Positions 26,992 to 43,661 of a DNA stretch of 64,000 bases are shown here, piece after piece. The stretch covers positions 1 through 64,000 of the forward strand of contig JADLHM010000098.1 in NCBI GenBank assembly GCA_020848745.1, read 5' to 3'. Within the stretch, counting starts at the first letter, position 1, and every line of letters starts with the position of its first letter. The notes under the pieces were generated by a model. That model saw nothing but the letters and a program-made list of their open reading frames with translations, was not told where the DNA came from and ran no database searches. Position numbers and translations under genes: made by a program. The stretch comes from Deltaproteobacteria bacterium. GTDB lineage: Bacteria > Desulfobacterota > Binatia > UTPRO1.

Positions 26992-28254
26992 ATGGATCTT
27001 TTTCAGACCTGCTACGACTACCAAGAACCGGGCTTCGTGCGGTCGGCCGGCGTGTATCCTTTCTTCTTGCCGCTGGAGGGCTCGGAAGGGCCGGTCGTCA
27101 CCTACCAGGACAAAGAGGTGGTGATGATGGGGTCCAACAACTACCTCGGCCTGACCCACCATCCGAGGGTCCGGGCGGCCGCCAAGCAGGCAATCGATCA
27201 GTACGGCACGGGCTGCACCGGCTCGCGCTTCCTGAACGGCAACCTGGACCTGCACGACCAGCTCGAACGCGAGCTTGCGGCGCTCTTCGGCTACGAAGAG
27301 GCGCTCGTGTTCGCATCGGGCTTCCTCGCGAACGTCGGCGTGCTCGCGGCCCTCGGCTCGATCCCGGGCACGGTGATCTTCTCCGAGCGCGAGAACCACG
27401 CGAGCCTGATCGACGGAACGCGCCTCGCGCGCGGCGAGGTGCGGCTCTTCAAGGACCTCGCCGACCTCGATCGCCAACTCGCGGTGGGGGGGACCGACTG
27501 GTCGCATGCGCTGGTCGTCTGCGACGCCGTCTTCTCGATGACCGGGCGGGTGATGGATCTCCGCCGGCTTGCCGAGCTCAAGCGCAAGTACAAGTTCAAG
27601 CTCTACGTCGACGACGCGCACGGCATCGGCGTGCTCGGCCCCGATGGGCGCGGTGCGGTGTTCGATCAGGGCGTGCGTGACGACGTCGACCTGCTGTTCG
27701 GCACGTTCAGCAAGTCGCTCGCGAGCCTCGGCGGCTTCGTGTGCGGCGAGAAACGCGTGATCGACTGGCTCCGACACAAGACGCGCTCGCTCATCTTCAC
27801 GGCTGGCTTGCCGCCGGCATCGGTCGCTGCCGCGCTCGCGGCCCTGGGCGTGATGCGGGACGAAGCGGGGGAGTTGCGGGCCCGCGTCTGGGCCAATACC
27901 CGCTACTGGCACGACGGTCTCGACGCGATCGGCTACTGCACGATGGGATCGACGACGCCGATCGTGCCCGCGATGATCGGCTCCGAGTCCCTGGCCTTCC
28001 GGATCGCGCGCGATCTCCTCGACCTCGGCGTCTTCGCGATTCCGGTGCCGTATCCGGTGGTGCCGTACGGACAGTCGCTCATCCGCACGAGCGTGATGCC
28101 GACCCACACGCGCGCCCACCTCGATCGCGCGCTCGATGCCTTCGCGCAGGTACGCCAACGCTACGCCATTCCCGAGTTCGATCTCGACAATCTGCCGACG
28201 GCGGACCACGAGGACTGGTCGTGGTTCCTGCCTGACCAGGCGAAGTCGGCGTAG
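26992..28254 (+). CDS. spt: Serine palmitoyltransferase-like alpha-oxoamine synthase
   Basis: 420 residues, fold type I PLP enzyme. Family marks: SNNYLGL (48-54), YGTGCTGSRFLNG (71-83), NHAS (His136), YVDDAHG (Asp207, His210) and TFSKSLASLGG with the PLP lysine at 241. The GTGCTGSRFLNGNLDLH block is closer to Bacteroidetes-type serine palmitoyltransferases than to biotin or glycine enzymes, and BioF/Kbl partners are absent. SPT condenses serine with acyl-CoA/ACP to 3-ketosphinganine, the committed step of sphingolipid synthesis. Context (ceramide synthase-like, CerR-like, desaturase, kinase) supports this. GGGAGG lies upstream of the ATG. Confidence 0.82.
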   Translation: MDLFQTCYDYQEPGFVRSAGVYPFFLPLEGSEGPVVTYQDKEVVMMGSNNYLGLTHHPRVRAAAKQAIDQYGTGCTGSRFLNGNLDLHDQLERELAALFGYEEALVFASGFLANVGVLAALGSIPGTVIFSERENHASLIDGTRLARGEVRLFKDLADLDRQLAVGGTDWSHALVVCDAVFSMTGRVMDLRRLAELKRKYKFKLYVDDAHGIGVLGPDGRGAVFDQGVRDDVDLLFGTFSKSLASLGGFVCGEKRVIDWLRHKTRSLIFTAGLPPASVAAALAALGVMRDEAGELRARVWANTRYWHDGLDAIGYCTMGSTTPIVPAMIGSESLAFRIARDLLDLGVFAIPVPYPVVPYGQSLIRTSVMPTHTRAHLDRALDAFAQVRQRYAIPEFDLDNLPTADHEDWSWFLPDQAKSA

Positions 28255-28258
28255 CCGC

Positions 28259-28282
28259 GCGCGCGGAGCCGGCTCCGCGCGC
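28259..28282. terminator. Palindromic terminator between spt and the reductase gene
   Basis: GCGCGCGGAGCC immediately followed by its complement GGCTCCGCGCGC forms a perfect 24-bp palindrome in the 37-bp space between two convergent genes. No T-run. Position suggests a bidirectional terminator. Confidence 0.5.
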
Positions 28283-28291
28283 AGGCGCGCG

Positions 28292-29260
28292 TCAGAGCCA
28301 GCCGCTCCGGCGATACCACGCGGCCGTGCGCGCGAGCCCGGTCGCGAGATCGGTCGCCGCGCGCCACCCCGTCGCCGACTCCAGCGCGGCCGGCGAGCAG
28401 AGCCACGCGTCGGCGAGAATCTCGTTGGCCTTGTCGCGCGAGAGGAGCGTCGCGCGGCGCGCGAGCCGCGCGCTCGCCCCCGTCACGAAGAAGAGCGGCC
28501 GGACGATCGCGCGGGGCAGGGGCACCACGCGGACGCGGGCGTCGAGCGCCGCGGCGATCGCCTCGACGAGCGCCCGCGCCGTCGTCGGCGTCGGGTGGGC
28601 GGGGTAGTACACGCCCGCCGGCGGACGCTCCACGCACTCGGCGATCGCGGCGGCGAGATCCGGCGCGTAGACGAGGGACAGGCGCTGTCCGCCGTCGCCG
28701 AACATCGGCGCGACGCCCCGCCGGGCAATGCGGAAGAGGCGGAGGAACTCGCGGTCGTGCGGACCGTAGACGGCCGGCGGTCGGAGGATCGTCCACGGGA
28801 TCGCGAGCGCGCGTACGGGCGCTTCGCCGGCGAGCTTGCTCCTGCCGTAGTCGCTCACGGGATGCGGCGGCTCGTCGCCCGTCGGCGCGCGGCCGAAGAT
28901 CGTGGGGCCGGCCGCCGTGAGGCTGCTGACGTGTACGAAGCTGCGGATGCCCGGCCGCGCGCGCACCGCGTCCACGAGCGCGCGCGTGCCGCCGGCGTTC
29001 ACGGCGAAGAGCTCGGCGCGGCTCCGCGCCGCGACGAGCCCCGCGAGATGGACGACACCGTCGGCCCCGGCGGCGCCGCGCTCGAGTGCGGCGCGGTCGC
29101 CGAGGCCGCCCGCGACGATCGTCGGCGGCGCGTCGCCGAACAGCGCGCCGGCCTTCCGCGCGTCGCGCACGAGGCAGGCGACCTCGTGACCGCGCGCGCG
29201 CAGCGCGGCGACCACGTGGACTCCGACGAAGCCGGTCGCGCCGGTCACGAACACGCGCAT
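28292..29260 (-). CDS. NAD(P)-dependent epimerase/dehydratase, CerR-like (putative ketosphinganine/ketoceramide reductase)
   Basis: 322 residues, extended short-chain dehydrogenase. Rossmann motif GATGFVG at 7-13, Ser-112/113 and Tyr138-x3-Lys142 (YGRSK) form the catalytic set. The C-terminal part has long apolar stretches (LPRAIVRPLFFVTGASARLARR) often seen in enzymes acting on membrane lipids. In Caulobacter a member of this superfamily (CerR) reduces the 3-keto group during ceramide synthesis, and here it converges directly on the spt gene, so the same role is inferred. A sugar-nucleotide or sterol substrate is the alternative. Confidence 0.72.
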   Translation of the reverse strand: MRVFVTGATGFVGVHVVAALRARGHEVACLVRDARKAGALFGDAPPTIVAGGLGDRAALERGAAGADGVVHLAGLVAARSRAELFAVNAGGTRALVDAVRARPGIRSFVHVSSLTAAGPTIFGRAPTGDEPPHPVSDYGRSKLAGEAPVRALAIPWTILRPPAVYGPHDREFLRLFRIARRGVAPMFGDGGQRLSLVYAPDLAAAIAECVERPPAGVYYPAHPTPTTARALVEAIAAALDARVRVVPLPRAIVRPLFFVTGASARLARRATLLSRDKANEILADAWLCSPAALESATGWRAATDLATGLARTAAWYRRSGWL

Positions 29261-29325
29261 CGTGCCGGCGATCGTATCCCATCGCGCGGCGTCCCGTCGC
29301 CTTGACGCTCCGTGGGGTGCGTGCG

Positions 29326-30432
29326 ATGCGAACCGGCTTGCGCACCGCCGTCGCCACCGGCTTTCCGCCGCTGCTCGATCGATACGTGGCGCGCGAGGTG
29401 ACGTCGCACGCGTTCGGCGGCTTCGCGGTCGTGCTCGGGGTATTCCTCGTCACGCGGGGGAGCGTCCTGCTGTCCGACGCGGCCGTGGGGGGCTTGCCCG
29501 GCGGCGTACTGGCGGTGCTCCTCGGGCTCCGCACGGTGATGGCGCTGCCCTCGTTGCTGCCGGCGGTCGCGTATCTCGGCGTGCTGCTCGCGATGAATCG
29601 CCTCTCGCGCGACCGCGAGCTGATCGCGATGGCGGCGACGGGGATCGGGCCCGGACGACTCGAGCGCGCGGTCCTCGGCTGCGGTCTCTGCGCCGCGCTC
29701 GTGGTCGCCGTGCTCTCCTTCGCGGGACGGCCGTGGGCGGCGGCGCGGTACGCCGAGGTCCGTGACCTCGCCATCGCCCGGTCGGGCCTCGACGACATCA
29801 CGCCGGGGGTCTTCTACGAGCTCCGTTCGACGGCGCGCGAGGTGGTGTTCGCCGGCGCGCGGTCGGCGACCGACCCGGCCTACCTCGAGGACGTGTTCGT
29901 GCAGCGGCGTGACGCGAACGGGCTCGCGGTCTTCTCCGCGGCGCGGGCGATCGAGACGCGCGACCCGGCGCATGGCATCCGCAACCTCGTCCTCGAGGAC
30001 GGCTACCAGTACGATCTCACCGTCGAGAGCGACAAGCAGACCGTGACGCGGTTCGAGCGCCTCGCGATGCAGGTGCCGCTGCCTCCGCGCGAGGGCGACG
30101 CCGAGAAGAGCCTCACGTGGCGCGAGCTCTTCGCCGCCGCCGATCCGGAGTCCGTCGCGGAGCTCCAGTGGCGTGCCGCCATGCCGATCGCGACCGTCCT
30201 CCTCTGCCTGCTCGCGATTCCGCTCGGCCGCTTCGACCCGCGCTCGGGCCGGACGGCGCGGCTCTTCACGGCGGCGCTGGCCTACATGGTGTATCGGGCG
30301 CTGCTCGGGACCGCGAAGAGCTGGGTCGCGAACGGGATCCTGCCGGCAGCGGCCGGGCTGTGGATGGTCCATGGCGCCTGTTTCGGCGTGGTGCTCGCGC
30401 TCGCCTGGCGGCAGCGCCGGGCCGCGGGATGA
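29326..30432 (+). CDS. LptF/LptG family permease (first of a pair)
   Basis: About 368 residues with the LptF/G layout: N-terminal LLDRYVAREVTSHAFGGF helix, three helices, a large periplasmic beta-jellyroll-like domain (roughly 130-280), then three C-terminal helices. The block LAMNRLSRDRELIAMAATGIGPGRL matches the cytoplasmic coupling loop. ATG 29326 begins the family similarity; the frame is open upstream but Arg-rich. LptF/G normally extract lipopolysaccharide for LptB2FG, yet no lptB/C/A are near; within a sphingolipid cluster it may serve ceramide-lipid export. Overlaps the next gene by 4 bp. Confidence 0.82.
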   Translation: MRTGLRTAVATGFPPLLDRYVAREVTSHAFGGFAVVLGVFLVTRGSVLLSDAAVGGLPGGVLAVLLGLRTVMALPSLLPAVAYLGVLLAMNRLSRDRELIAMAATGIGPGRLERAVLGCGLCAALVVAVLSFAGRPWAAARYAEVRDLAIARSGLDDITPGVFYELRSTAREVVFAGARSATDPAYLEDVFVQRRDANGLAVFSAARAIETRDPAHGIRNLVLEDGYQYDLTVESDKQTVTRFERLAMQVPLPPREGDAEKSLTWRELFAAADPESVAELQWRAAMPIATVLLCLLAIPLGRFDPRSGRTARLFTAALAYMVYRALLGTAKSWVANGILPAAAGLWMVHGACFGVVLALAWRQRRAAG

Positions 30433-31496
30433 GGCTCCTCGACCGCCACGTCGGTCTCTCGGTCGTGCGGAGCTTCGGCGAGGCGCTCGGGGGGCTCCTC
30501 GCCGTGTTCACGGTCCTGCGCGTCACCGAGGAGCTGCGCGCGGTCGGCGGCGGATGGACGGTCGGTCGCGCGCTCGGCTTCGTCGTCCTCACGCTTCCGA
30601 GCGAGGCCTACGAGCTCTTTCCGGCGGCCGCGCTGCTCGGAGCGGTCCTGGGTCTCGGGCGGCTCGCGAACGACCGCGAGCTCGTCGCCATGCAGGCCGC
30701 GGGGTACTCGCCGCTGCGCGTCGCGCGCGCCGTCTTCGGGGCGGCGCTCGTGCTGGCGCTCGGCGGCGCGGCCGTGGGCGAGCTCGTGGCGGTGCCGCTC
30801 AGCCAGCGGGCGCACGCGCAGCGCGCGCTCGTGCTTTCCGGCGGCCGCGCGCTCTCGACCGCGTCGGGGCTCTGGGTGCGCGCCGGGTCGGGCTTCGTCA
30901 ACATCGGCGCGCTCAACGCCGACGGCTCCCTCGGCGAGGTCTACGAGTTCGATTTCGCGGGCGGCCGCGCGCTCGCGCGCTTCACCTACGCGCGCGTGGC
31001 CTTGCCGACGGCGGACGGATGGCGGCTTCGTGATCTCCGCGAAAGCACCTTCCACGACGACGTCGCGACCACCCGCAGCGCCGCGCTCGAGCCGTGGCGC
31101 GTCGACGTCGCCCCGAAACGGCTCCAGACCCTCTGGCTCGAGCCGCGCGATCTCTCGCTCGCGGAGCTCGTGCGCACCATCGTGACGCTGCGGGCGCAGC
31201 GGCAGAATCCCATCGCGCACGAGGTCGCCTTCTGGCGGCGGGCGAGCGCCCCGGTGTACATGGGGGTGATGGTGCTCCTTGCGGTTCCCATGGTGATGGT
31301 GAGCGGACGCGCGGTGCGCGTCGGCGAGCGCGCGCTCGTGGCGGCGCTCGTCGGGATCGGGTTCCAGATGGCGCGGGAGATGTTCACCAACTTCGGGCTC
31401 GTCGCCGGTGTGTCGCCGCTCGCGATCGCGCTCCTGCCCGCGCTCGTCGCGGGCGTCGCCGTCGTGGCGCTTTTCCGCCGCGCGGGATTGGCATGA
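30429..31496 (+). CDS. LptF/LptG family permease (second of a pair)
   Basis: About 355 residues, overlapping the preceding permease by ATGA. Starts MRLLDRHVGLSVVRSFGEAL and has the ELVAMQAAGYSPLRVARAV coupling loop, a periplasmic beta domain and the late RQNPIAHEVAFWRRASAP segment characteristic of LptG. Six membrane helices expected. It should pair with the upstream protein as a heterodimeric transmembrane unit needing an ABC ATPase supplied from elsewhere. It is also coupled by ATGA overlap to the phosphatidyltransferase gene, which ties lipid export to lipid synthesis. Confidence 0.84.
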   Translation: MRLLDRHVGLSVVRSFGEALGGLLAVFTVLRVTEELRAVGGGWTVGRALGFVVLTLPSEAYELFPAAALLGAVLGLGRLANDRELVAMQAAGYSPLRVARAVFGAALVLALGGAAVGELVAVPLSQRAHAQRALVLSGGRALSTASGLWVRAGSGFVNIGALNADGSLGEVYEFDFAGGRALARFTYARVALPTADGWRLRDLRESTFHDDVATTRSAALEPWRVDVAPKRLQTLWLEPRDLSLAELVRTIVTLRAQRQNPIAHEVAFWRRASAPVYMGVMVLLAVPMVMVSGRAVRVGERALVAALVGIGFQMAREMFTNFGLVAGVSPLAIALLPALVAGVAVVALFRRAGLA

Positions 31497-32716
31497 CGGC
31501 CGGCGGCGCGCCTGCCGTCGCGATCGTCGGCGGCCGCGACGTGCGCCTGTGGGGCATCGACGGCGCCGAACGGCTCGCGCGCCAGCTGCGCGCGGCGGGC
31601 GTGACGCAGGTGGCGCGCGACACGAGTCCGCCGGCGTCCGCGGCCTCCGTACTGTGGCTGCGCGGCGACTATCTCTTCGAGGACCGCACGCTCGCCGACC
31701 TCCTGCGCCAGCCGGGGGTCGCGCTGACCGCCTCCGGCGCGCGCGCGCGCGCGGTCGCGGCGCACGTGAGCGCGCCGGAGGCCGCCGCGGCGCGCGCCGT
31801 CGTCGAGGGCGAGGCCGACCCGACGTCGCTGTCGAACGTCGTCGTGCACAGCCCGGAGGCTTTCTCGACGGCGTTCGTGCGAAAGCTCCACAAGGCGGCG
31901 CCGCCGGTCGTGCTGCGGGTGCGTCCCGAGCGCGCCGCCGCGCTCGAGCGCCATCTCTTCGACGGCTCCTACAAGGGCGTCACCGACCTCGTGACCAAGT
32001 GGCTGTGGCCGGCGCCGGCGCGCGCGGTCGTGCGCGTCTGCGCGCGCCACGGCATCCCGCCGAACGCGGTCACCTCGGTGAGCTTCCTCCTCGTCGTGGG
32101 CGCGACCGTGCTCTTCGCGTCCGGCTGGTTCGGCGTCGGACTCGCGCTCGCCTGGATCATGACGTTTCTCGACACCGTCGACGGCAAGCTCGCGCGCGTC
32201 ACGGTCACGTCGACGCCGTTCGGGCACTACTTCGACCACACGATCGACTCCGTGCACCCGCCCGTCTGGTACATCGCGTGGGCGCTCGGCGTGACCGGGC
32301 CGACGCACGTCCTCACGGTGCTCCCCCTGCTGGTCGTGATCGTCGCCTTCTACGTCGGCGGCCGCTTCTTCGAGAGCTTCTTCAAGCACGCGGTCGGCGG
32401 CGGCTCGCTCTTCGCCTGGCGCCCGTTCGATTCGTACTTTCGCCTGGTCATGGCGCGCCGGAACCCGAATCTGATCGTCTTGACGGTGTCGTGGCTCGCC
32501 GGCGCGCCGCGGACCGGACTCATCGTCGTCGCCCTCTGGACGGTGCTCTCGACGGTGATCCTCGGCGTCCGCTGTCTGCAGGGCATGCGGGTGCGGCGGC
32601 GCTCCGGGTCCCTCCGGCCCTGGATCGAGGAGCTCGGCAACGAGGCCGCCGTCGTGCCGGGCTGGGCGAAGCCGTTCGTCGCAGACCTTGCCGCCGTGCG
32701 CCATCTCGTGCAGTAA
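31493..32716 (+). CDS. CDP-alcohol phosphatidyltransferase with extra N-terminal domain
   Basis: 407 residues. The catalytic signature D-x2-DG-x2-AR-x8-G-x3-D-x3-D runs exactly from Asp227 to Asp252 (DTVDGKLAR ... GHYFDHTID). Membrane helices follow. Residues 1-180 form a separate alpha/beta domain that resembles a nucleotidyltransferase lacking its GxGxR signature, in the arrangement of inositol-phosphate cytidylyltransferase/DIPP synthase fusions. It transfers a phospho-alcohol from a CDP carrier; with the neighbouring kinase and cytidylyltransferases it probably builds the head group of a ceramide phospholipid. ATGA overlap with the upstream permease. Confidence 0.85.
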   Translation: MTAGGAPAVAIVGGRDVRLWGIDGAERLARQLRAAGVTQVARDTSPPASAASVLWLRGDYLFEDRTLADLLRQPGVALTASGARARAVAAHVSAPEAAAARAVVEGEADPTSLSNVVVHSPEAFSTAFVRKLHKAAPPVVLRVRPERAAALERHLFDGSYKGVTDLVTKWLWPAPARAVVRVCARHGIPPNAVTSVSFLLVVGATVLFASGWFGVGLALAWIMTFLDTVDGKLARVTVTSTPFGHYFDHTIDSVHPPVWYIAWALGVTGPTHVLTVLPLLVVIVAFYVGGRFFESFFKHAVGGGSLFAWRPFDSYFRLVMARRNPNLIVLTVSWLAGAPRTGLIVVALWTVLSTVILGVRCLQGMRVRRRSGSLRPWIEELGNEAAVVPGWAKPFVADLAAVRHLVQ

Positions 32717-32724
32717 GCACGGGG

Positions 32725-33807
32725 TTGCCGCCGCGCGGACCACAGGAGGCCCTCGAGGTTCCGGCCGACCCGGCCGTCGTCGATCAGCAGCCGCACCGCC
32801 TCGAGGCGTCGGACGGTCACGGTGAGCGGCCGCGTCGTTATCCGCTGCAGGTCGCGATCATCAGCAATCCGACGAGCGGCCAGAACGCCCGCCGCGGGCT
32901 GCTCGCGAGGATCGAAGGGCTGCTCGCGGGCCATACGGGCGTCCGGCACTACACCGAGCGCACGTTCGAAGGCCTGGCCGAGGCGACGCGCGCGGTGGTG
33001 GACGCCGAGACCGAGATCGTGGTGGTGAACGGCGGCGACGGTTCGGTGCAGACGGTCCTCACCGCCATGCTGTGCGCGCCGCTCGATCGGCTGCCGCTCC
33101 TCGCGGTGCTGCCGGGCGGCACGACCAACACGACCGCGCGCAACGTCGGCTACGGATCGGACCCGCTGGCGGCGCTCGCGCGGCTGCTTCGCGAGTCGGC
33201 GCGCGGCGTGCTCGCCGGCCGCGTCGAGCGTCGGCCGGTCGTGTGCGCGGACCTTCCCGACGGCCCGCAGTTCGCGATGATGTTCGGCGCCGGCGCCGTC
33301 TATGACGGCATCGTCTTCGCGCGCAATCAGCTCGAGAGCCACGGCGTCCGCGGTCAGCTCGGCGGCGGCGTCGCCCTCGCGACCTTTCTCGCCCGCGTCC
33401 TCACCGGCCGCGCCGGCACGATGTTCCCGCCGCTCGCGGCCGAGGTCCGCCTCGACGGGCGGGTGCTCCCGCCGACGCGCTACTTCGGCATGCTCACCTC
33501 GACGATCGATCGGCAGTTCCTCGGCGTGAGGCCGTACTGGGGTGTGGGTCCGGGACCGCTGCGCTTCAGCGCGATGCGCGAGGGGCCGCAACACCTCGCG
33601 CGCGCCATCTTTCCGGCCCTCCGTGGACGCCCGAGCCCGTGGCTCCGGCCGGAGCTCGGCTATTACAGCCACAACGTCGACGAGGTCGACCTCCGGTTCG
33701 ACGGCGGGTTCACGCTCGACGGTGAGCTCTTCGCGCCGAGCGGACGCGAGCGGCACGTCGTGCTGACGGCGCGGCGCTCGGCGTACTTCCTGCGAGCGAC
33801 GCCGTGA
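32725..33807 (+). CDS. Diacylglycerol/ceramide kinase-like lipid kinase
   Basis: About 360 residues. The DAGK catalytic domain starts at VAIISNPTSGQNARRG (about 43) and carries NGGDGS (102-106) for ATP binding and LPGGTTNTTARN (about 129). Eukaryotic sphingosine/ceramide kinases and the Caulobacter ceramide kinase belong to this superfamily. The start is uncertain: TTG 32725, 9 nt after the previous stop, is the only usual start codon in frame ahead of the domain. In this setting phosphorylation of ceramide is more likely than of diacylglycerol, but sequence alone does not decide. Confidence 0.8.
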   Translation: MPPRGPQEALEVPADPAVVDQQPHRLEASDGHGERPRRYPLQVAIISNPTSGQNARRGLLARIEGLLAGHTGVRHYTERTFEGLAEATRAVVDAETEIVVVNGGDGSVQTVLTAMLCAPLDRLPLLAVLPGGTTNTTARNVGYGSDPLAALARLLRESARGVLAGRVERRPVVCADLPDGPQFAMMFGAGAVYDGIVFARNQLESHGVRGQLGGGVALATFLARVLTGRAGTMFPPLAAEVRLDGRVLPPTRYFGMLTSTIDRQFLGVRPYWGVGPGPLRFSAMREGPQHLARAIFPALRGRPSPWLRPELGYYSHNVDEVDLRFDGGFTLDGELFAPSGRERHVVLTARRSAYFLRATP

Positions 33808-34745
33808 CGGGGCCGACGCTCGAGGCCATGGTCGAGCGCGAGCTCGATGCGACGGTTCCGGAGGGCGCCCATCGCCTCGCCGAGAGGCTGCGGCTGCGCT
33901 TCGGGGCCGCGCTCCGCGCGGTGGTCATGTACGGGTCGAACCTCCGGCGGGGCGACGACGATGAGGGGGTGCTCGATCTCTACGCGCTGGTGTCGAGCTA
34001 TCCGAGCGCCTATCCGCAGCGGCCCGGGCTCGCGATGATCAACCGCCTGCTGCCGCCGAACGTCTTCTATATGGAGGTGCAGGGCGAGCGGCATCCGGTG
34101 CGCTGCAAGTACGCGGTCCTCGCCCTCGACGACCTGCCGCGGCTGACCTCGCGCCACACCGCCGAGCCGTATTTCTGGGCGCGCTTCGCGCAGCCCTGCG
34201 CGCTCGTCTGGGCCGCCGACGTCGAGGCGCGCGCGCTCGTCGTCGCGGCGTTCGCGGGCGCGATCCGGACGTTCGTCCGGTTCGCCGTGCCCTTCGCGGA
34301 CGAGCGGTTCGACGCCCGCGCGCTCTGGACGCGCGCCTGGCGGGCGACCTACGGCGCCGAGATCCGGCCCGAGCGGCCGGGGGCCGCCGAGGTGCTCTGG
34401 GCGGCGAACGCGGCGCGCTTCGTGGCCGCGACGGCGCTCGCGCTCCCGAGCGTTCCCTGGCCGGTCGCGGCGGAGGCCGGCGCGTTCACGGTCGCGCTCC
34501 CGCCCCGCGAGCGGCGGCGCGCGCTCCGGGCCTGGCGGGTCCGCCGCTTACGCGCGAAAGCCGCGTTTCTCCTGCGGATCCTGCGAAACGCGATGATCTT
34601 CGAGGGGGGCGTGGACTACGTCCTCTGGAAGATCCAGCGCCATGCGGGTGTCGCCGTCACCTCCGATTGGCGGCAGCGGCGCCACCCGCTGCTCGCGCTC
34701 GGCGCCGAAGCCTGGCGCCTCTATCGGGCCGGCGCTTTCCGCTGA
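33804..34745 (+). CDS. Tam41-like phosphatidate cytidylyltransferase
   Basis: 313 residues; GTG start overlaps the kinase stop (GTGA). It has a nucleotidyltransferase core with YGSN (43-46), DDDEGVLDLYALV (acidic residue pair, Asp58) and then NVFYMEVQGERHPVRCKYAVLALDDL, a layout that matches mitochondrial Tam41 (MMP37), which makes CDP-diacylglycerol. Tam41 relatives are uncommon in bacteria. In this cluster it may activate a phosphorylated ceramide or phosphatidate with CTP. The remaining ~150 residues are helical and Arg-rich, plausibly membrane associated. Confidence 0.66.
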   Translation: MTGPTLEAMVERELDATVPEGAHRLAERLRLRFGAALRAVVMYGSNLRRGDDDEGVLDLYALVSSYPSAYPQRPGLAMINRLLPPNVFYMEVQGERHPVRCKYAVLALDDLPRLTSRHTAEPYFWARFAQPCALVWAADVEARALVVAAFAGAIRTFVRFAVPFADERFDARALWTRAWRATYGAEIRPERPGAAEVLWAANAARFVAATALALPSVPWPVAAEAGAFTVALPPRERRRALRAWRVRRLRAKAAFLLRILRNAMIFEGGVDYVLWKIQRHAGVAVTSDWRQRRHPLLALGAEAWRLYRAGAFR

Positions 34746-35720: not shown

Positions 35721-35726
35721 AAGCGG

Positions 35727-36722
35727 GTGCGCGCCGACTACCCGGTGAGCGCGGGCCCCAACCCGCACATCGAGCGCGCCAAGGAGATCCTCAAGCGCCA
35801 CCCCGACGTCCGGAAGCTCGTCGGACCGTACCCGCTCTCGGCGCTCTGCGCCGCGGCGGTCGTCGCCGGTCAGCTGCTGATGGCCTACGCGCTCCGCGAC
35901 GCCCATTGGCTCGTGATCGTCGTGGCGGCGTATCTGGTGGGTGCCTTCGCGAGTCATGCGCTCTTCGTGCTCATCCATGACGCGAGCCACAACCTGACCT
36001 TACATGGCACCCTGGCGAATCGGCTGATCGGCCTGCTCTGCAACGTCGGACAGGGGTTCCCGAGCGCGATGTCGTTCCGGACCTACCATCTGCTCCACCA
36101 CTGGCGTCTCGACGAGTACGACTACGACGCCGATCTCGCCTACCGCTGGGAGGCGCGCCTCGTCGGAACCTCGCCGCTGCGGAAGGCGCTCTGGCTCCTC
36201 GTCTTTGCCGGGGTCGAGGTCATCCGGCCGCTGCGCATCCGCGGCCGGTTCGCCGATCCGTGGCTCTTCGCGAACGTCGTGCTGATCGCCGCGACCGACT
36301 ACCTGGTCTGGCGGTGGTGCGGCTTCGCGGGGCTCGCGTACGTGCTGCTCTCGACGTTCGCCGGCATCGGGCTCCACCCGCTCGGCGCCCGCTGGATCCA
36401 GGAGCACTATACCTTCGTGCCGGGCCAGGAGACGTACTCCTACTACGGGATCCTGAACCGGGTGTCCTTCAACATCGGCTACCACAACGAGCACCACGAC
36501 CTGATGCGCGTGCCGTGGGTGCATCTGCCGAAGCTGAAGGCGCTCGCGCCCGAGTTCTACGAGCCGCTGCACGCGCACCGGTCGCTGACGCGCGTTCTGC
36601 TGCGGTGGATCTTCGACCCGGAGCTCGATCTCTTCGCCCGCATCACGCGCGACCGCGGTCGCGCCGCGGCGCCGCCCTCCGAGGAGGACGTCCTCCTCGG
36701 GGATCTGCCCGCGGCGGTGTAG
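35727..36722 (+). CDS. DEGS-type sphingolipid delta4-desaturase/hydroxylase
   Basis: 331 residues with the three histidine boxes of the family: HDASH (84-88), HLLHH (121-125) and HNEHH (253-257). The N-terminus IERAKEILKRHPDVRKLVGPYP matches the lipid-desaturase (Lipid_DES) domain that precedes the desaturase in eukaryotic DEGS1/2, and EHYTFVPGQETYSYYG followed by FNIGYHNEHHD matches the DEGS signature almost word for word. Family members insert the 4,5-trans double bond of sphingosine into dihydroceramide (or 4-hydroxylate it) with a di-iron centre. GTG start 6 nt after the previous stop. Four or more membrane helices. Confidence 0.85.
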   Translation: MRADYPVSAGPNPHIERAKEILKRHPDVRKLVGPYPLSALCAAAVVAGQLLMAYALRDAHWLVIVVAAYLVGAFASHALFVLIHDASHNLTLHGTLANRLIGLLCNVGQGFPSAMSFRTYHLLHHWRLDEYDYDADLAYRWEARLVGTSPLRKALWLLVFAGVEVIRPLRIRGRFADPWLFANVVLIAATDYLVWRWCGFAGLAYVLLSTFAGIGLHPLGARWIQEHYTFVPGQETYSYYGILNRVSFNIGYHNEHHDLMRVPWVHLPKLKALAPEFYEPLHAHRSLTRVLLRWIFDPELDLFARITRDRGRAAAPPSEEDVLLGDLPAAV

Positions 36723-36744
36723 CGCCGGACGCGCCGCCCGCGTG

Positions 36745-37494
36745 TCAGCCCGCCTTGGATCGCAGGAACGCTTCGGCGGCGACGCGTTGCGCGGGGGTGT
36801 CGATGTCGAAGCCGGCCGCGGGGTCGGTCAGGAGGACCGGCCGCACGGAAAGCCCGGTCCGCGCGAACACCACCCCCGTCAGGTCGGCCAGGGAGAGCCT
36901 CCCCAGCGCGAAGCGGGCGAGCGTGCCCCAGCCGAGGATGCGCAGCATGCGCCACGGACGCTTGCGCTCGGCCTCGACCCGGGTCCACTCGCGGAGCGCC
37001 GCGTAGCCTTTCGTCGTGAGGAGCGCGTAGAGGTTGCACCCGCAGAATCCGCCGTCGTGGAAGCGGAACGCCGTACGGCGGATGCCGGGGAACGCCGCGT
37101 GCACGAGACTGACGGGCACGAGCCCGAAGGTGGCGTCGGCATTGATCGCGGTCGCGCGTTCGCAGAAGGCGTCGAGGGTTGCCGCGGAGAGGAGGGGGTG
37201 GTCGGCCGTCGTGATCAGTACGGGCGGCGTGAGGCCGAGCTGCTCGATGGCGAGGGCCGCGCTGGCGCTCGGGGTGCGATCGCCGCGGACGGTCTCGACG
37301 GCCGCTCCGCCGCCGTGCCCGGCGAGCGCCGGATCGAGCCCGCACACCACGACGCGCCCGATCCAGCGGCTCGCGCGCAGCGTCGCGAGCACGCGGTCGA
37401 GCATCGCGATTCCCGCCACCGGCGCCAGCGCCTTGTGCGCGACCCCGGTCGCGCTCGCGATCGGGTCGGCGCCGCCGCGGCTACCCGCCATCAC
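36745..37494 (-). CDS. MobA-like NTP transferase
   Basis: About 249 residues. The Rossmann-like core shows LVMAGSRGG near the start, HKALAPVAGIAMLDRVL, TTADHPLL and GFDIDTPA at the end, typical of MobA/GlmU-type nucleotidyltransferases, with the Gly-rich loop altered from GGxSxRMG to AGSRGG. GTG 37494 trims the first strand; a CTG at 37527, overlapping the upstream gene stop, would keep it and may be the true start. It is downstream of the ceramide synthase-like gene on the same strand, suggesting a role in making an activated head group. Confidence 0.68.
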   Translation of the reverse strand: MMAGSRGGADPIASATGVAHKALAPVAGIAMLDRVLATLRASRWIGRVVVCGLDPALAGHGGGAAVETVRGDRTPSASAALAIEQLGLTPPVLITTADHPLLSAATLDAFCERATAINADATFGLVPVSLVHAAFPGIRRTAFRFHDGGFCGCNLYALLTTKGYAALREWTRVEAERKRPWRMLRILGWGTLARFALGRLSLADLTGVVFARTGLSVRPVLLTDPAAGFDIDTPAQRVAAEAFLRSKAG

Positions 37495-37523
37495 GAGGGC
37501 GGTGAAGAGGGTCGGGGACGCGT

Positions 37524-38732
37524 TCAGGGGAGCGGCTTCTCGTAGACGCGGTAGGTCTTGTACTGGTGGCCGCCGAGGAGACGCATCACGCGGAGCAGGG
37601 GGAAGTTGTCCTCCAGGACCCAGCCCATCTCGATGTGCCGCATGTCCCGTACGGCTGGCGACACCCGCACGGCTTCGATCAGCCCGAAGACGAGCGCCAT
37701 CGCGAGCGAGCTCGACTGGAACTTCTGGCGGACGCCCATGAGCGCCACGCGCGCCGAGCACGTCGGCCGCGTGCGTATGCGCCAGAGGAGCTTCGCCCAA
37801 CCGAAGGGCAGGAGGCGTCCGTCGAGATCGCCGATCAGCTCGTTCAGGTTCGGCACGATGACGAGCATCGCCGCCATCTCCCCGTCGACCTCGGCGAACT
37901 GCACGAAGTCGCGCGGCACGAGGTACTTGAGCGCGCTCGCGAGCTCGGCGAACTCGGCCTCCGTGAACGGCACGAAGCTCCAGTTGTGCGCCCACGCGTC
38001 GCAGAAGATCTCGCTGATCACGGCCGCCTCGGCGCGCAGGCGCGACTTGTCGACCGGGCGGATCGTCACCCGGGCGTCCTCGCGCGCGCGACGCGCGGCC
38101 TCGACCATCGTGCGCGGCGGCGTGCCGTTGGTGTCGAGCGTGTAGGCCACCACGTCCTTGGCCTTGTGGTAGCCGAGCCGCTGTACGCGCGCGTCGTAGT
38201 AGGGACGTCCATGGCCGGTCAGGAAGACCGGCGGGTGCTCGAAGCCGTCGATCAGGGTCCCGATGTCGCCGTTGATCGAGAGATTGAAGGGGCCGAGGAC
38301 GCGCCGCATGCCCTGCGCGCGCAGCCACTCCTCGGCGGCGCCGAGGAGCGCCTCGAACACCGCGTGATCGTCGATCGCCTCGAGCGCGCCGAAGTGGCCG
38401 GTCGCGTCGTCGTAGCGTTCGATCCGGAGCGCATCGACCTGCGCCGTGATCCGGCCGACCGGCCGGCCGCCGCGGTACGCGACGAAGAGCTGCACCTGCG
38501 CGTGCTGGAAGAAGGCGCTCTTCGGCGAGAAATTGTGGCGCTGCTCGGTGCGGAGCGGCGGCACCCATGCCGGGTCGGCCGCGTAGATGGCGTAGGGCAG
38601 CTCCACGAAATCGCGGAGGTCCCGGCGCGAGCGAACCGGCCGGACCTCGACGGGCGCCGACGACCGTTGCTCGCGCTCCCGCGCCTCGAGCGCCTCCGGG
38701 ACCGGTCCCGCCACCCTCGTACCGTGCTTCAC
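37524..38732 (-). CDS. Bacterial ceramide synthase-like GNAT acyltransferase
   Basis: About 402 residues, GNAT fold with long extensions. Matching blocks to the bacterial ceramide synthase family described in Caulobacter are FPKSAFFQHA-type SPKSAFFQHAQVQLFVA, GPFNLSINGDIGTLIDG, GHGRPYYDARVQRLGYHKAKDV and a C-terminal EMGWVLEDNFP. The enzyme N-acylates the sphingoid base, the step after SPT. Start set at GTG 38732; an ATG at 38774 would add 14 residues. Convergent/divergent partners are the spt-cluster genes, and the downstream NTP transferase follows with a possible overlap. Confidence 0.8.
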   Translation of the reverse strand: MKHGTRVAGPVPEALEAREREQRSSAPVEVRPVRSRRDLRDFVELPYAIYAADPAWVPPLRTEQRHNFSPKSAFFQHAQVQLFVAYRGGRPVGRITAQVDALRIERYDDATGHFGALEAIDDHAVFEALLGAAEEWLRAQGMRRVLGPFNLSINGDIGTLIDGFEHPPVFLTGHGRPYYDARVQRLGYHKAKDVVAYTLDTNGTPPRTMVEAARRAREDARVTIRPVDKSRLRAEAAVISEIFCDAWAHNWSFVPFTEAEFAELASALKYLVPRDFVQFAEVDGEMAAMLVIVPNLNELIGDLDGRLLPFGWAKLLWRIRTRPTCSARVALMGVRQKFQSSSLAMALVFGLIEAVRVSPAVRDMRHIEMGWVLEDNFPLLRVMRLLGGHQYKTYRVYEKPLP

Positions 38733-38828
38733 GCGACGAGCGGCATACGGCACGCCCCGCCAAGGGTCAAGCAAGAGCGCAAAACGCGGTTACCACTCCG
38801 GCCCGACCCTTGATACAAGCGCCTCCGG

Positions 38829-40562
38829 ATGAAGCTGCTGCTGCTGATCGTTCGCCGGTATCCGCAGCGGACGCTTCTCGCGCTCGGCTGCCTGGTCTGC
38901 GCGGGGCTCGCCGAAGGCATCGGGATCTCGAGCCTGCTGCCCGTGATCCGCGTCGCGACCCGCGACCAGGCGAGCGCCGCCGCGAGCAATACGGCGCTCG
39001 AGCGCGGGCTCGACACCGCGCTCGGTTTCGTCGGGCTCGCGCCGACCACGACGACGCTCTTCACGATCGTGTTCGCCGGCATCGCGCTCAAGGCCGGGCT
39101 CGTGCTGCTCGCGAACCGGCAGGTCGGCTACGCGGTCGCGCACGTCGCGACCACGCTGCGCCTGCAGCTCATCGAGGCCCTCCTGCGGACGCGCTGGGCC
39201 TACTTCGTCCACAAGCCGGTCGGCGCGATCGCCAACTCGGTCGCGATGGAGGCGCAAGCGGCGGCCGACGCGTATCTGCACGCCACGACCGTCTGGGCGC
39301 TGCTCGCGCAGTGCTTCGTCTTCGCCGCCATCTCCTGCCTCGTGTCGTGGCGGGCGACGCTCGGCGCGCTCGTCGTCGGATCCGTCATCACGGTGCTCCT
39401 GAACCGCCTCGTGCGGGCGTCGCGGAAATCCGGACGGCGGCAGACCATGCGCATCCGCCAGCTCCTTGCTCGCCTCACCGATACGCTGCAGGCCGTGAAG
39501 CCGCTGAAGGCGATGGCGCGCGAGCCGCTGATCGCTCCGGTGCTGGAGGGGGAGACGCGGCGGCTCAACCAGGCGCTCGAGCGGGAGGTGATGGCGCGCG
39601 CCTACCTCGAAGCGTTTCAGGATCCGCTCATGATGCTCTTCCTGGCGGTCGCGCTCTACGTCGGGCTCGGGACGCTCTCGATGCCGTTCGCCGACGTGGT
39701 GATCCTGGTGTTCCTCTGCGCCCGCATCATCGCCGATCTCGCCAAGGTGCAGAAGAGCATGCAGCGCCTCGCCGTGAAGGAGAGCGCGTACTGGGCGCTC
39801 GACGATCTGATCCGCGAGGCGCGCGGCGCGGTCGAGGTGGGGACGGGAACGCAGCCGGTACGCTTTACGCGCGAGATCCGCGTCGACCACGTGTCGTTCG
39901 CGCACGACGTGGCGCCGGTCCTCAGCGACGCCGCCATGGTGATCCCCGCGGGGTCGCTCACCGTCATCACCGGCCCGTCGGGATCCGGCAAGACGACGCT
40001 CGTCGATCTGATCGTCGGACTGCTGCAGCCGCAGGCGGGCGAGGTGCGGGTCGACGGTGTGCCCTTGCGCGAGATCGCGGCGCGCGATTGGCGCACGCAG
40101 ATCGGCTACGTCCCGCAGGAGACGCTCATGCTGCACCAGAGCGTCGCGCAGAACGTGACGCTCGGCGATCCGTCGGTGCCGCTCGCCGACGTGCACGAGG
40201 CGCTCCGCGCGGCGGGAGCGAGCGAGTTCGTCGCGGCGCTGCCCGAAGGCGTCGACACGATCGTCGGCGAGCGCGGGCTCCGGCTCTCGGGCGGTCAGCG
40301 GCAGCGGCTCGCGCTCGCCCGGGCGCTCGTGAGGAAGCCGGCCCTTCTCGTGCTCGACGAGGCGACGACCGCGCTCGATCCGGCGACCGAGCGCGAGATC
40401 TGCGCGACGCTGCGCGCGCTCCGCGGTGCAGTGACCCTGGTCGCGATCTGCCACCACGGCCACCTGATCGACGTCGCGGACCTCGTCTATCACGTCGACG
40501 ACGGACGCATCGCGCTCGCGCGCGGCGCGCTCGCCGAGCGGCGCGACGTCGCGCGCGGCTGA
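38829..40562 (+). CDS. ABC exporter, MsbA-like half transporter
   Basis: 577 residues: six membrane helices in the first ~330, then an ATPase with Walker A GPSGSGKTT (382-390), Q-loop VPQET, signature LSGGQRQRLALARAL (about 486) and Walker B LLVLDEATT (about 506), switch His in AICHHGH. It is a homodimeric fused-domain exporter like MsbA/lipid flippases. Placed between the ceramide synthase-like gene and the LpxO-like gene, it may flip ceramide lipids across the inner membrane. Divergent from the preceding gene, ~96 bp apart. Confidence 0.86.
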   Translation: MKLLLLIVRRYPQRTLLALGCLVCAGLAEGIGISSLLPVIRVATRDQASAAASNTALERGLDTALGFVGLAPTTTTLFTIVFAGIALKAGLVLLANRQVGYAVAHVATTLRLQLIEALLRTRWAYFVHKPVGAIANSVAMEAQAAADAYLHATTVWALLAQCFVFAAISCLVSWRATLGALVVGSVITVLLNRLVRASRKSGRRQTMRIRQLLARLTDTLQAVKPLKAMAREPLIAPVLEGETRRLNQALEREVMARAYLEAFQDPLMMLFLAVALYVGLGTLSMPFADVVILVFLCARIIADLAKVQKSMQRLAVKESAYWALDDLIREARGAVEVGTGTQPVRFTREIRVDHVSFAHDVAPVLSDAAMVIPAGSLTVITGPSGSGKTTLVDLIVGLLQPQAGEVRVDGVPLREIAARDWRTQIGYVPQETLMLHQSVAQNVTLGDPSVPLADVHEALRAAGASEFVAALPEGVDTIVGERGLRLSGGQRQRLALARALVRKPALLVLDEATTALDPATEREICATLRALRGAVTLVAICHHGHLIDVADLVYHVDDGRIALARGALAERRDVARG

Positions 40563-40640
40563 GACGCGCCGGCGTCGCGTCCATGCGCACCGCCGCGTGA
40601 TCGCCGCAGCCGCCGACGCGCCCGCCGCAGCGCCCTACGG

Positions 40641-41495
40641 TTACGCGCGCGCCGCGTCCGGCAGTTGTACGACCGCGTTCTCGCGGAACTTCCGCACCGA
40701 CGGTTCGTAGTACACCGCCTTCAGGAGCGCGCGGTTGTAGAGGTCGAGGGTGCGTGGCAGCTTGCGCGCGACGTCGAGCCAGAGCACGACCCGCACCTCG
40801 TTGCTCTCGTTCGCGGCGTCGTGGAGGTTGGTGTCGTCGAAGATCACGCCGCGGCCGTTCCGCCAGTGGAACTTCCGCGTGCGCGCGATCAGCGACTTGT
40901 CGCGGAGCGCGTTGTCCGCCGGGTCGACGTTGACGCGCAGCCAGCACTCGCGGCCGGCATTGTCGCCCGGGATCACCACGCCGAGGTGATAGCGGACGAA
41001 GCCCTTGTAGTACCCCCAGTGCGGGGTCACGTACTGGCGCGGCTCGAGGATCGAGAAGAACGCGTTGTAGACGTCGGCGAGCGGGCGAAGCACCGCCGCC
41101 GTCCTCGGCGCGAGGGCGCAGTTCTCCTCGATGAAGCTGCCCGACTTCAGCATGAACGCCTTCCACCGGATCGTGTGGATGCCGCGTTCGGTGTACTGGC
41201 CACCGAGCTTCGACATGTCGGTGATGCGCGAGCGGAACGCGAGCAGGCGCTCGCACTCGCCGCGGATGTCGGGATAGGCCGCCTCGAGCGCGAGCAGCTC
41301 CGGATATTCGCGGCCGTAGTCCTCGAGATAGTCCGGAACGCGCGCGATGAGCCCCGCCTCCTCGCAGCGCGCGTAGACGCTGTTGAAGGCGTTCTTCACC
41401 CGCTTCTTGCCCTTCTTGCCCGCGCCGGGCAGGTGCGCGAGCGCCTTCAGGATGTCGACGCTCGAGGATGCGGCGATGCGCAGCGGGGTGAACAT
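40641..41495 (-). CDS. Aspartyl/asparaginyl beta-hydroxylase family dioxygenase (LpxO-like)
   Basis: 284 residues. The iron/2-oxoglutarate site is visible: TPHWG (His159), VRYHLGVVIP (168-176), FDDTNLHDAANES (His225) and VRVVLWLD (Arg235 for 2-oxoglutarate). The same family includes LpxO, which adds a 2-hydroxyl to lipid A acyl chains. Here the substrate is inferred to be the N-acyl chain of ceramide or a related lipid, giving an alpha-hydroxy group. A protein substrate (aspartyl hydroxylation) is the classical alternative. Confidence 0.8.
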   Translation of the reverse strand: MFTPLRIAASSSVDILKALAHLPGAGKKGKKRVKNAFNSVYARCEEAGLIARVPDYLEDYGREYPELLALEAAYPDIRGECERLLAFRSRITDMSKLGGQYTERGIHTIRWKAFMLKSGSFIEENCALAPRTAAVLRPLADVYNAFFSILEPRQYVTPHWGYYKGFVRYHLGVVIPGDNAGRECWLRVNVDPADNALRDKSLIARTRKFHWRNGRGVIFDDTNLHDAANESNEVRVVLWLDVARKLPRTLDLYNRALLKAVYYEPSVRKFRENAVVQLPDAARA

Positions 41496-41532
41496 GCGGC
41501 CTCGTTAACGGCTCGTCCGCGAGTCCGCAAGC

Positions 41533-42537
41533 GTGAACGACCCGGTTGCGGCCGTGCCGGAGCTTCGCCATCATCGCCGCGCCGTGCCGCCGAACTTCAC
41601 AGCGATCGAGGCCGCCGGCCTCGGCCTCGATCGCGCCGCGCTGCTCGCCGCGATGGATCCGTTCATCGCCTGCCGCCTCGCGCCGACCGACCCGCGCTGG
41701 ACGGCGGAGGTGGTCCGCAAGCACGCGAAGGCGCGGCGACGGCTGCGGCGGCGCCGCTGGCTCGGGTGGCTCGGACGGGGCAAGCGCCGCGGCCAGGACC
41801 GCATCGAGTCCGAATACGACCAGGCCTGGGCCCGCAAGCGCCTCGCCCCCTACGAGATGGAGCCGCGACCCCGGGCGGGCGCCGCGTGGCAATACGGCGA
41901 CGCGGCCATGTTCGCGACGAGCGCCGCCGGTGCCCGCGCCCGCCTGCTGGTCCTGATGCGGGCGGTGGCGCTGCTCCGGCCCGCGAGCGTCCTCGAGGTC
42001 GGCTGCGGCAACGGCCTGAACCTCCTCACGCTGGCCTGCCGCTTCCCGGCGACGCGCTTCGCGGGCGTCGAGCTCACCGACGGCGGCTTCGCGACCGCGC
42101 GCGCCGTGCAGGAGGAGGCGGAACTGCCCGCGGTGCTGCGGCGCTTCGCGCCGGAGCCGCTCGCCGACCCGAGTGCGCACCGGCGCGTCGACTTCCGGCG
42201 CGGCAGCGCCGCCGAGCTGCCGTTCGCCGATGCCGCCTTCGACCTCGTCTATTCGTCGCTCGCCCTCGAGCAGATGGAGGAGATCCGCGACCGGGCGCTC
42301 GGCGAGATGTCCAGGGTGGCCGGACGTCACACGCTCATGCTGGAGCCGTTCTGGGACTGCAACGACCGCGGCCTGCGGCGCGACTATCTCCTCGCGCGCG
42401 ATCACTTTCGCGGCCGCATCGACGAGCTGCCGCGCCATGGTCTCGAGCCGACGCTGGTGACGGACGACCTCCCGGGCGAGATCTGGCTGCAGCCCTGTCT
42501 CGTCGTCTGCCGCAAGCGCGCCGCCGTGTCGTGGTGA
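41533..42537 (+). CDS. SAM-dependent methyltransferase
   Basis: 334 residues. Motif I VLEVGCGNG lies at 153-161, with later ELPFADAAFDLVYSSLALEQM as motif IV region, giving a class I Rossmann methyltransferase. The N-terminal 140 residues are basic (RRRLRRRRW) and unlike common families. It overlaps the next gene. Substrate unknown; methylation of a lipid head group in the surrounding cluster is a guess. Confidence 0.72.
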   Translation: MNDPVAAVPELRHHRRAVPPNFTAIEAAGLGLDRAALLAAMDPFIACRLAPTDPRWTAEVVRKHAKARRRLRRRRWLGWLGRGKRRGQDRIESEYDQAWARKRLAPYEMEPRPRAGAAWQYGDAAMFATSAAGARARLLVLMRAVALLRPASVLEVGCGNGLNLLTLACRFPATRFAGVELTDGGFATARAVQEEAELPAVLRRFAPEPLADPSAHRRVDFRRGSAAELPFADAAFDLVYSSLALEQMEEIRDRALGEMSRVAGRHTLMLEPFWDCNDRGLRRDYLLARDHFRGRIDELPRHGLEPTLVTDDLPGEIWLQPCLVVCRKRAAVSW

Positions 42538-43661
42538 GCCAGCCGCGCATCGCGCCGGCCGAGCGCCGCATCTGGGTGCTGACCGGCGACAAGCCGGGCG
42601 ACAACGCGCAAGCGCTCTCGCTCGCCGCGGCGCTCGGCTGGCCGACCGAGGTGAAGCGGCTGCGCTACCTGCGGATCGCGAGGCGGTCGCTCGCGGAACG
42701 CGTCGCGGGGGCGCGCGTCGACCGCTTCCCGCTCGACCGCGAACACTCGAGCCCGCTCGCGCCGCCGTGGCCCGATCTCGTGATCGGCTGCGGCCGGCGC
42801 AGCGTCGGGGTGACCTGGGACATCCGTCGGCAGGCCGGGTCCGCGACGCGGCTCGTACAGCTCGGACGGCCGCGCGCCGATCTCGACGCCTTCGACCTCG
42901 TCATCACCACGCCGCAGTATCGCTTACCGGCGCGGTCGAACGTGCTGCATCTCGCGTTGCCGCTCCATCGTCCCGACCCCGACGCGTGGGCGCGCGCCGG
43001 CGCCGAATGGGCGCCGCGCTTCGCGCGCCTGCCGCGGCCCTGGTTCGCGCTCCTGATCGGCGGGAGCGCGAAGCCGTTCGTGTTCGACGCCGCGGCGGCG
43101 CGGCGGCTCGCGGAGCAGGCGAACGCGCTCGCGCGCGCCGAGGGCGGCTCGTTGCTCGTCAGCACGAGCCGGCGGACGCCGCAGGACGCCGCGCGCACGC
43201 TCGTCGACGCGCTCGCGGTGCCGGCGTACCTCCACCAGTGGAGCGCCGCGGGCGGGCCGAATCCGTATCTCGCGTACCTGGCGCTCGCCGACGGCTTCGT
43301 CGTCACCGGCGACAGCGCGTCGATGTTGACGGAGGCGTGCAGCACGGGAAAGCGCGTGTGGTACGTCGACCTCCCGCAGCGTCGCTCGCCGAGGTCGCAC
43401 GTCAAGAATCTCTTCCGGCGGATCGTGCTCGCTCCGACGCAGCATCCGGAGCTGCTCGGAGGATCGCTCGCGCGGCTCGCGGCCCGGCTCCCCGCCCGCG
43501 GCTGGGTGCGCTACCCGCGCGACCTGCGGAAGCTCCACGCAGCGCTGGTGGCCGTGAATCGCGCGCTGCCGCTCGGCCGATCCTTCGCGGCGCCCCCGCC
43601 GCCGCCGCTCGACGAGACCGCGCGCGCCGTCGGGCGGGTGCGCGCCCTCTTCGGCGAGTGA
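42534..43661 (+). CDS. ELM1 family protein (GT-B-like fold)
   Basis: 375 residues; GTG start (42534, or GTG 42531) overlaps the methyltransferase stop. Opens IWVLTGDKPGDNAQALSLAAALGWP and carries WPDLVIGCGRRSVGVTWDIRR and ADGFVVTGDSASMLTEACSTGKRVW, all typical of the Mito_fiss_Elm1 family (PF06258). The fold is like GT-B glycosyltransferases, with the TGDS-x2-ML-x-EA segment at the sugar-nucleotide site. In bacteria these proteins are associated with cell-envelope clusters; a glycosyl transfer to a ceramide lipid is possible, not shown. Confidence 0.72.
   Translation: MSQPRIAPAERRIWVLTGDKPGDNAQALSLAAALGWPTEVKRLRYLRIARRSLAERVAGARVDRFPLDREHSSPLAPPWPDLVIGCGRRSVGVTWDIRRQAGSATRLVQLGRPRADLDAFDLVITTPQYRLPARSNVLHLALPLHRPDPDAWARAGAEWAPRFARLPRPWFALLIGGSAKPFVFDAAAARRLAEQANALARAEGGSLLVSTSRRTPQDAARTLVDALAVPAYLHQWSAAGGPNPYLAYLALADGFVVTGDSASMLTEACSTGKRVWYVDLPQRRSPRSHVKNLFRRIVLAPTQHPELLGGSLARLAARLPARGWVRYPRDLRKLHAALVAVNRALPLGRSFAAPPPPPLDETARAVGRVRALFGE

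Follow-up and report, generated by a model that had tools for sequence, protein, structure and literature searches.

A predicted sphingolipid gene island with a DEGS-type desaturase in a bacterium of the Desulfobacterota lineage Binatia

The described system closest to the locus studied here is the ceramide phosphoglycerate (CPG/CPG2) locus of Caulobacter crescentus, CC_1152-CC_1168, among whose products are a ceramide kinase, the CDP-glycerate synthase CpgD and the proposed transporters LptF2 and LptG2 (PMC11324152, PMC12275187). We analyzed a window of 64,000 nucleotides from Deltaproteobacteria bacterium (GenBank assembly GCA_020848745.1, contig JADLHM010000098.1, positions 1 to 64,000; GTDB lineage Desulfobacterota, Binatia, UTPRO1), whose genome comprises 4.88 Mb in 155 contigs at ~71% G+C. 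Going by the published descriptions, an island of ~17 kb in this window has in common with the Caulobacter locus spt, cerR, cerS and the ceramide kinase gene; the CDP-diacylglycerol-synthase-like CpgC, the CDP-alcohol transferase CpgA and CpgD; and a CofC-like nucleotidyltransferase, a flippase, LptF2 and LptG2. Very probably, its genes serve to make a sphingolipid of the ceramide-phosphoglycerate type known from Caulobacter, to desaturate and hydroxylate it, to attach its phospho-head group and to export it. Unlike the Caulobacter locus, it also carries genes for a DEGS-type desaturase, an LpxO-like hydroxylase, an ELM1-type protein and a methyltransferase.

Judged by gene content, the island is a variant of the CPG/CPG2 cluster that would work like it, and not a strict member, because AasR and AcpR were looked for and not found in the island. 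Its core adds a new taxon to a type of cluster already known, in a lineage that retains its lipopolysaccharide (LPS) genes. The surprise would lie in the DEGS-type enzyme and in how widely it occurs together with ceramide genes.

Gene content, conservation and comparison with known clusters

The first-pass annotation of the window placed fifteen genes in named families. All are present, every family is upheld, and all coordinates are confirmed. These 15 open reading frames occupy 26992-43661 on both strands:

26992-28254, plus strand: serine palmitoyltransferase (SPT), predicted to condense serine with an acyl thioester; Aminotran_1_2 1e-50, SPT clade 100/100
28292-29260, minus strand: CerR-like NAD-dependent epimerase/reductase; PF01370 (Epimerase) 1e-33, 31-36% to the SPT-cluster epimerase/reductase
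29326-30432, plus strand: LptF-type permease, second copy (LptF2); PF03739 (LptF_LptG) 7e-60
30429-31496, plus strand: LptG-type permease, second copy (LptG2); PF03739 (LptF_LptG) 1e-59
31493-32716, plus strand: CDP-alcohol phosphotransferase (CpgA-like) with an N-terminal cytidylyltransferase-like domain; PF01066 (CDP-OH_P_transf) 1e-9
32725-33807, plus strand: lipid kinase (CpgB/ceramide-kinase-like); PF00781 (DAGK_cat) 4e-19, GGDGS motif
33804-34745, plus strand: Tam41-fold cytidylyltransferase (CpgC/CC_1161-like), predicted CDP-ceramide synthase; AlphaFold pLDDT 88.6, Tam41 match
34887-35720, plus strand: LicC/COG1213-type cytidylyltransferase (CpgD-like), predicted CDP-glycerate synthase; 44% to a phosphocholine-cytidylyltransferase-family gene of plasmid pBYT5-2
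35727-36722, plus strand: DEGS-type sphingolipid Delta4-desaturase (predicted activity), 331 aa; PF08557 and PF00487, three histidine boxes
36745-37530, minus strand: MobA/CofC-like nucleotidyltransferase (CC_1153-like); PF12804 3e-13
37524-38774, minus strand: bacterial ceramide synthase (CerS)-like GNAT N-acyltransferase; homology to GNATs of SPT and lipid clusters
38829-40562, plus strand: MsbA-like ABC exporter, predicted flippase; PF00005 (ABC_tran) 3.5e-32, PF00664
40641-41495, minus strand: LpxO-like Asp/Asn beta-hydroxylase, predicted acyl-chain hydroxylase; PF05118 (Asp_Arg_Hydrox) 1e-29
41533-42537, plus strand: S-adenosylmethionine-dependent methyltransferase, accessory; Methyltransf_11 7e-13
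42534-43661, plus strand: ELM1/GtrOC1-type putative glycosyltransferase; PF06258 (Mito_fiss_Elm1) 2e-66

A Pfam family above the curated cut-off was found for 13 of the 15 genes. The two without an accepted family, the GNAT protein and the Tam41-like protein, were settled by homology and by structure (an AlphaFold model), respectively. Because that model matches Tam41 structures, we count three nucleotidyltransferases in the island: Tam41-like, CpgD-like and CofC/MobA-like. Both MobA-like enzymes match NTP_transf_3 (PF12804; 1.5e-12 and 3e-13).

Thirteen of the fifteen genes are matched in one contiguous cluster on plasmid pBYT5-2 of Pseudomonas sp. BYT-5 (locus L123). Identities are 37% for SPT, 32% for CerR, 45% for CerS, 29% for LptF, 31% for LptG and 44% for the ABC transporter beside SPT. 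Among head-group enzymes they are 45% for the CDP-alcohol transferase, 32% for the kinase, 34% for the Tam41-like protein (to an unnamed gene after the kinase), 44% for the CpgD-like and 35% for the CC_1153-like enzyme. The common set extends to modification genes, namely the LpxO-like hydroxylase (35%) and the ELM1-type protein (40% to the ELM1 half of the plasmid protein, which has an additional N-terminal part of ~430 aa). Only the plasmid cluster has AasR, acyl carrier protein (ACP), phosphoesterase and zinc protease genes, and only the island has the DEGS and methyltransferase genes. This linkage across phyla supports the assignment to one pathway that was first made for all fifteen genes. 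The linkage covers thirteen of them; the methyltransferase, seen only in the window and G001 among the loci examined, may sit outside the core.

The gene order is conserved in related genomes. In Deltaproteobacteria bacterium SJ588 (G001, same genus), all 15 genes occur in identical order at 83-93% protein identity. A member of a second genus in the same family (G003) keeps 13 of the 15 in order, twelve at 62-87% and ELM1 at 45%, with no hit to the island's ABC transporter or methyltransferase. A chance assembly of genes is excluded, because the same fifteen recur in the same order in G001 and most recur in the second genus. Other families of the class (f5, f7, f11 and f16) have reduced or rearranged clusters of the same genes. 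The island is absent from G002, of the same genus, where ~1.2 kb stands in place of ~18 kb in a contig colinear with G001 on both sides. Thus, the island is a discrete presence/absence module:

26921-44629 (approximate limits), no strand: whole module, in which an aspartyl protease gene and a NUDIX gene join the island; colinear with G001 (88%), ~1.2 kb instead in G002

The retropepsin-like aspartyl protease and the NUDIX gene (43713-44638) accompany the island in G001, and the zinc protease of the Pseudomonas cluster occupies a comparable place. Three f5 clusters (L046, L049 and L051) contain two CDP-alcohol transferase genes, a phosphoesterase gene and a Sphingomonas-type desaturase gene, without a CpgD-like gene. 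This gene content suggests that the head-group route differs in these clusters.

Backbone, head-group and export genes

The island SPT belongs with serine palmitoyltransferases. The clade that contains it in a 53-row tree (100/100) also holds the Sphingobacterium, Sphingomonas and Pseudomonas SPTs and that of the E. coli yghO cluster; it excludes the host's own paralogue as well as the BioF and Kbl of E. coli. This placement rules out a BioF or Kbl identity, which the first-pass annotation had named as the finding that would count against it. A GTFSKSLASLGGF motif is common to the island and Sphingobacterium enzymes. The best NCBIfam model is the CFB-type SPT (393 bits), followed by the beta-type (331) and alpha-type (245).

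The GNAT protein scores 18.9 bits in Pfam against a cut-off of 20.7. Its homology, over ~90% of its length, is to GNATs of the Pseudomonas SPT cluster (44.7% identity), E. coli (YghO, 43.7%), Roseomonas (47.9%) and Sphingomonas (37.5%). In Pseudomonas and E. coli, the genes next to these homologues encode SPT, CerR, an acyl-AMP ligase and ACP; other homologues lie in the Sphingomonas SPT cluster and in Roseomonas lipid clusters. The concern that the protein might fall outside the ceramide synthases is therefore not borne out: it is homologous to the GNATs of clusters with SPT, AasR, ACP and CerR. A profile search returned no solved relative. A second CerS-like GNAT paralogue, 34% identical, lies at G000:C57:107354-108487 with no other island genes nearby. 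On an E. coli plasmid (L124:4525-10122), yghO sits within an SPT-ACP-CerR-AasR cluster that has its own LptF/LptG pair, and yghO matches also occur in two chromosome-size E. coli records.

The Tam41-like protein has no Pfam hit and adopts a predicted Tam41 fold. Its model matches the bacterial Tam41-CTP structure (7ecd) with Z 17.7 over 230 residues and mitochondrial Tam41 with Z 16.4, against Z 7.5 for the next unrelated family. The YGS...D-x-Y and K-Y motifs, candidates for the catalytic residues, are invariant in ten relatives. The model thus predicts a CDP-ceramide intermediate. The CpgC step of Caulobacter has been described as proceeding by an unidentified mechanism (PMC12275187), and it has been suggested that the Caulobacter counterpart activates ceramide-1-phosphate (PMC11324152). 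The predicted Tam41 fold supports that suggestion and provides a specific hypothesis on the CpgC step that can be assayed. We know of no sphingolipid pathway for which activation of ceramide as CDP-ceramide by a Tam41-fold enzyme has been described.

The other head-group enzymes fit the same scheme. The CDP-alcohol transferase carries the motif DTVDGKLAR-x8-G-x3-D-x3-D, and its model has structural matches in PIP synthase and in AF2299 and IPCT-DIPPS, the latter two also covering the N-terminal cytidylyltransferase-like domain. The lipid kinase is 32-34% identical to cluster kinases and probably starts at TTG 32725, where it aligns with the G001 start. The best solved match of the CpgD-like protein is the CTP:phosphocholine cytidylyltransferase 1jyk. 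The CC_1153-like enzyme is 35-43% identical to the nucleotidyltransferase adjoining CerS in Pseudomonas and Roseomonas.

The island LptF/LptG pair looks dedicated, because SPT-linked pairs resemble it more closely than the genome's other pair does: LptF scores 110 bits against 44, and LptG 140 against 87. A relative of the ABC exporter is found in most clusters of the class. With almost all the genes in a single block, LptF/LptG of its own included, the island is also a compact system in which to test the transport of sphingolipids to the outer membrane. The host genome encodes LpxC and another LptF/LptG pair elsewhere, the island pair being an extra one, and a replacement of LPS by the sphingolipid is therefore not supported.

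The DEGS-type desaturase and its linkage to ceramide genes

The desaturase matches FA_desaturase (PF00487) at 3e-24 and Lipid_DES (PF08557) at 5e-8, with 32.7 bits against a cut-off of 23. Both domains are present in all 11 relatives scanned, and the three histidine boxes (HDASH, HLLHH and HNEHH) are intact and conserved. Eukaryotic DEGS1 and DEGS2, of the enzyme class by which animals introduce the characteristic double bond of sphingolipids, likewise have an N-terminal Lipid_DES, a fatty acid desaturase domain and three histidine boxes. Unlike them, the island enzyme is bacterial and lies among bacterial-type CerS and CerR genes, and its activity is a prediction.

The desaturase is linked to ceramide genes in two separate lineages. 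Few genomes of the host's class have it (6 of 145), and a strong CerS match is found in five of the six (Fisher p 3e-4). In the sixth, G060, the desaturase lies inside an SPT-kinase-Tam41 cluster, where it adjoins a Sphingomonas-type desaturase. In G050 it adjoins a Tam41-like gene, beyond which lie the kinase, LptG, LptF and SPT genes. In one class of Bdellovibrionota it occurs in 43 of 129 genomes, and CerS is present in 42 of those 43 against 30 of the 86 without it (p 3e-13, a value that overstates independence since the genomes are related). Five Bdellovibrionota genomes have the desaturase at most ~7 kb from CerS, four of them with SPT there too; at other loci, for example L102-L104, it lies away from SPT and CerS.

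One Bdellovibrionota genome (G597, L200:6255-10266) has SPT, CerS, a sterol-desaturase/fatty-acid-hydroxylase-like gene on the opposite strand and DEGS in a row, and related linkage is seen in L201, L202 and L204. The L200 cluster resembles the island in bringing SPT, CerS and DEGS together and differs in that no phospho-head-group or Lpt genes were seen adjoining it.

In a midpoint-rooted tree of bacterial desaturases only, the window's clade (families f1, f11 and f16) forms one group (99/100) amid Bdellovibrionota sequences, and that of G073 lies elsewhere. This separation suggests two entries of the desaturase into the host's class. No match was found in viral contigs or plasmids, so carriage by a virus or plasmid is not indicated. 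A profile search of the PDB found no solved relative.

Eukaryotic-type sphingolipid enzymes other than SPT have recently been taken as absent from bacteria (PMC11087976) and DEGS1 as eukaryotic (PMC12993136), and Bacteroides thetaiotaomicron makes no sphingosine d18:1 (PMC7235224). A full-text literature search, with most subscription papers outside its reach, returned no published work on a bacterial DEGS. A ceramide-linked DEGS-type enzyme in several bacterial lineages contradicts the view of such enzymes as absent from bacteria, and it makes it possible to test whether the double bond of sphingosine arose in bacteria or in eukaryotes. Evenly balanced, in our judgment, is the broader proposal that at least three bacterial lineages (the host's, Bdellovibrionota and Bacteroidota) make Delta4-unsaturated, sphingosine-type ceramides through ceramide-linked DEGS orthologues and that the island's Tam41-fold enzyme forms CDP-ceramide.

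Proposed pathway, alternatives and surroundings of the island

From these gene families and their arrangement we infer which substrates are used, that the double bond lies at Delta4, that the head is phosphoglycerate and how the lipid is exported. SPT would form 3-ketosphinganine, probably from acyl-CoA, which is reasonably taken as the donor rather than acyl-ACP because AasR and AcpR were not found in the island. N-acylation by CerS and reduction by CerR would follow in either order. The long-chain base would receive a Delta4 double bond (or a C4 hydroxyl) from the DEGS-type enzyme, and the acyl chain a hydroxyl from the LpxO-like enzyme. The kinase would yield ceramide-1-phosphate, which the Tam41-fold enzyme would convert to CDP-ceramide; the CpgD-like enzyme would supply CDP-glycerate, and the CDP-alcohol phosphotransferase would couple the head-group units. 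Finally, the MsbA-like exporter would flip the lipid, and the dedicated LptF2/LptG2 would use the Lpt machinery of the cell to pass it on to the outer membrane.

Several observations weigh against this pathway. AasR, AcpR and a CC_1158-type phosphoesterase have no match in the window, which is what the search covered, and LptC2 was not recognized in the island. The phosphoesterase, present in the f5 relatives, is contributory and not essential in Caulobacter. In line with the first-pass annotation, neither an acyl-CoA or acyl-ACP synthetase nor an ACP gene was found in the island. Among the clusters seen in the class, only that of G011 (L095:10177-11661) has an AasR-like acyl-AMP ligase, and the SPT next to it is divergent. 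Identity to the proteobacterial enzymes is just ~29-48%, the island SPT falls under NCBI's strict SPT cut-offs, and orthology to Caulobacter runs through the Pseudomonas cluster and published descriptions rather than Caulobacter sequences. Caulobacter CerR is reported to be periplasmic (PMC11087976), whereas the NAD-binding motif of the island CerR starts near residue 3 and leaves no room for a signal peptide, which bears on whether ceramide reduction is periplasmic.

In one alternative the pathway is right but its DEGS-type enzyme hydroxylates C4, an activity that mammalian DEGS2 has in part, and the product is phytoceramide instead of a sphingosine-type ceramide. DEGS2 is bifunctional (PMC10140171), and the two activities are not separable here from sequence alone. 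No hydroxylase-specific feature was seen in the island desaturase, however. Desaturation is also the commoner activity of the DEGS family, and we regard hydroxylation as unlikely. That the enzyme desaturates the N-acyl group or an acyl chain of a phospholipid instead of the sphingoid base seems quite unlikely. It is also a PF00487 fatty acid desaturase, and a DesA-family enzyme hydroxylates the N-acyl chain in Caulobacter (PMC11324152), but every member scanned has the sphingolipid Delta4-desaturase domain PF08557, and the neighboring Sphingomonas-type desaturase of G060 is a better acyl-chain candidate.

A head group other than phosphoglycerate, with the CpgD-like enzyme activating a choline, glycerol or amino acid phosphate compound, is possible though doubtful. 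The COG1213 family takes several phospho-substrates (PMC12275187), and the closest solved relative makes CDP-choline. Yet the CTP and glycerate contact residues of CpgD appear to be retained, as judged by motif alignment without the CpgD sequence, and the remaining head-group genes are the Caulobacter set. We consider it very unlikely that SPT takes another amino acid and so leads to a 1-deoxyceramide, a sulfonolipid or a related aminolipid. Related alpha-oxoamine synthases do differ in their amino acid, and 1-deoxysphingolipids occur in Black Sea bacteria (PMC11334938). The island SPT, however, scores higher to a serine-using enzyme (300 bits) than to cysteate acyltransferase, a solved relative (235 bits), and the adjoining kinase, Tam41-fold enzyme and CDP-alcohol transferase require the C1 hydroxyl that 1-deoxy lipids lack.

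The neighborhood of the island has been rearranged within the genus, since a sucC segment (window 45201-46985; G001:C44:138400-140189) is located on one side of the island in the window and on the other side in G001. Elsewhere in the window, positions 18700-22224 encode a repetitive-looking minus-strand protein of 1174 aa with a Thr/Pro-rich linker.

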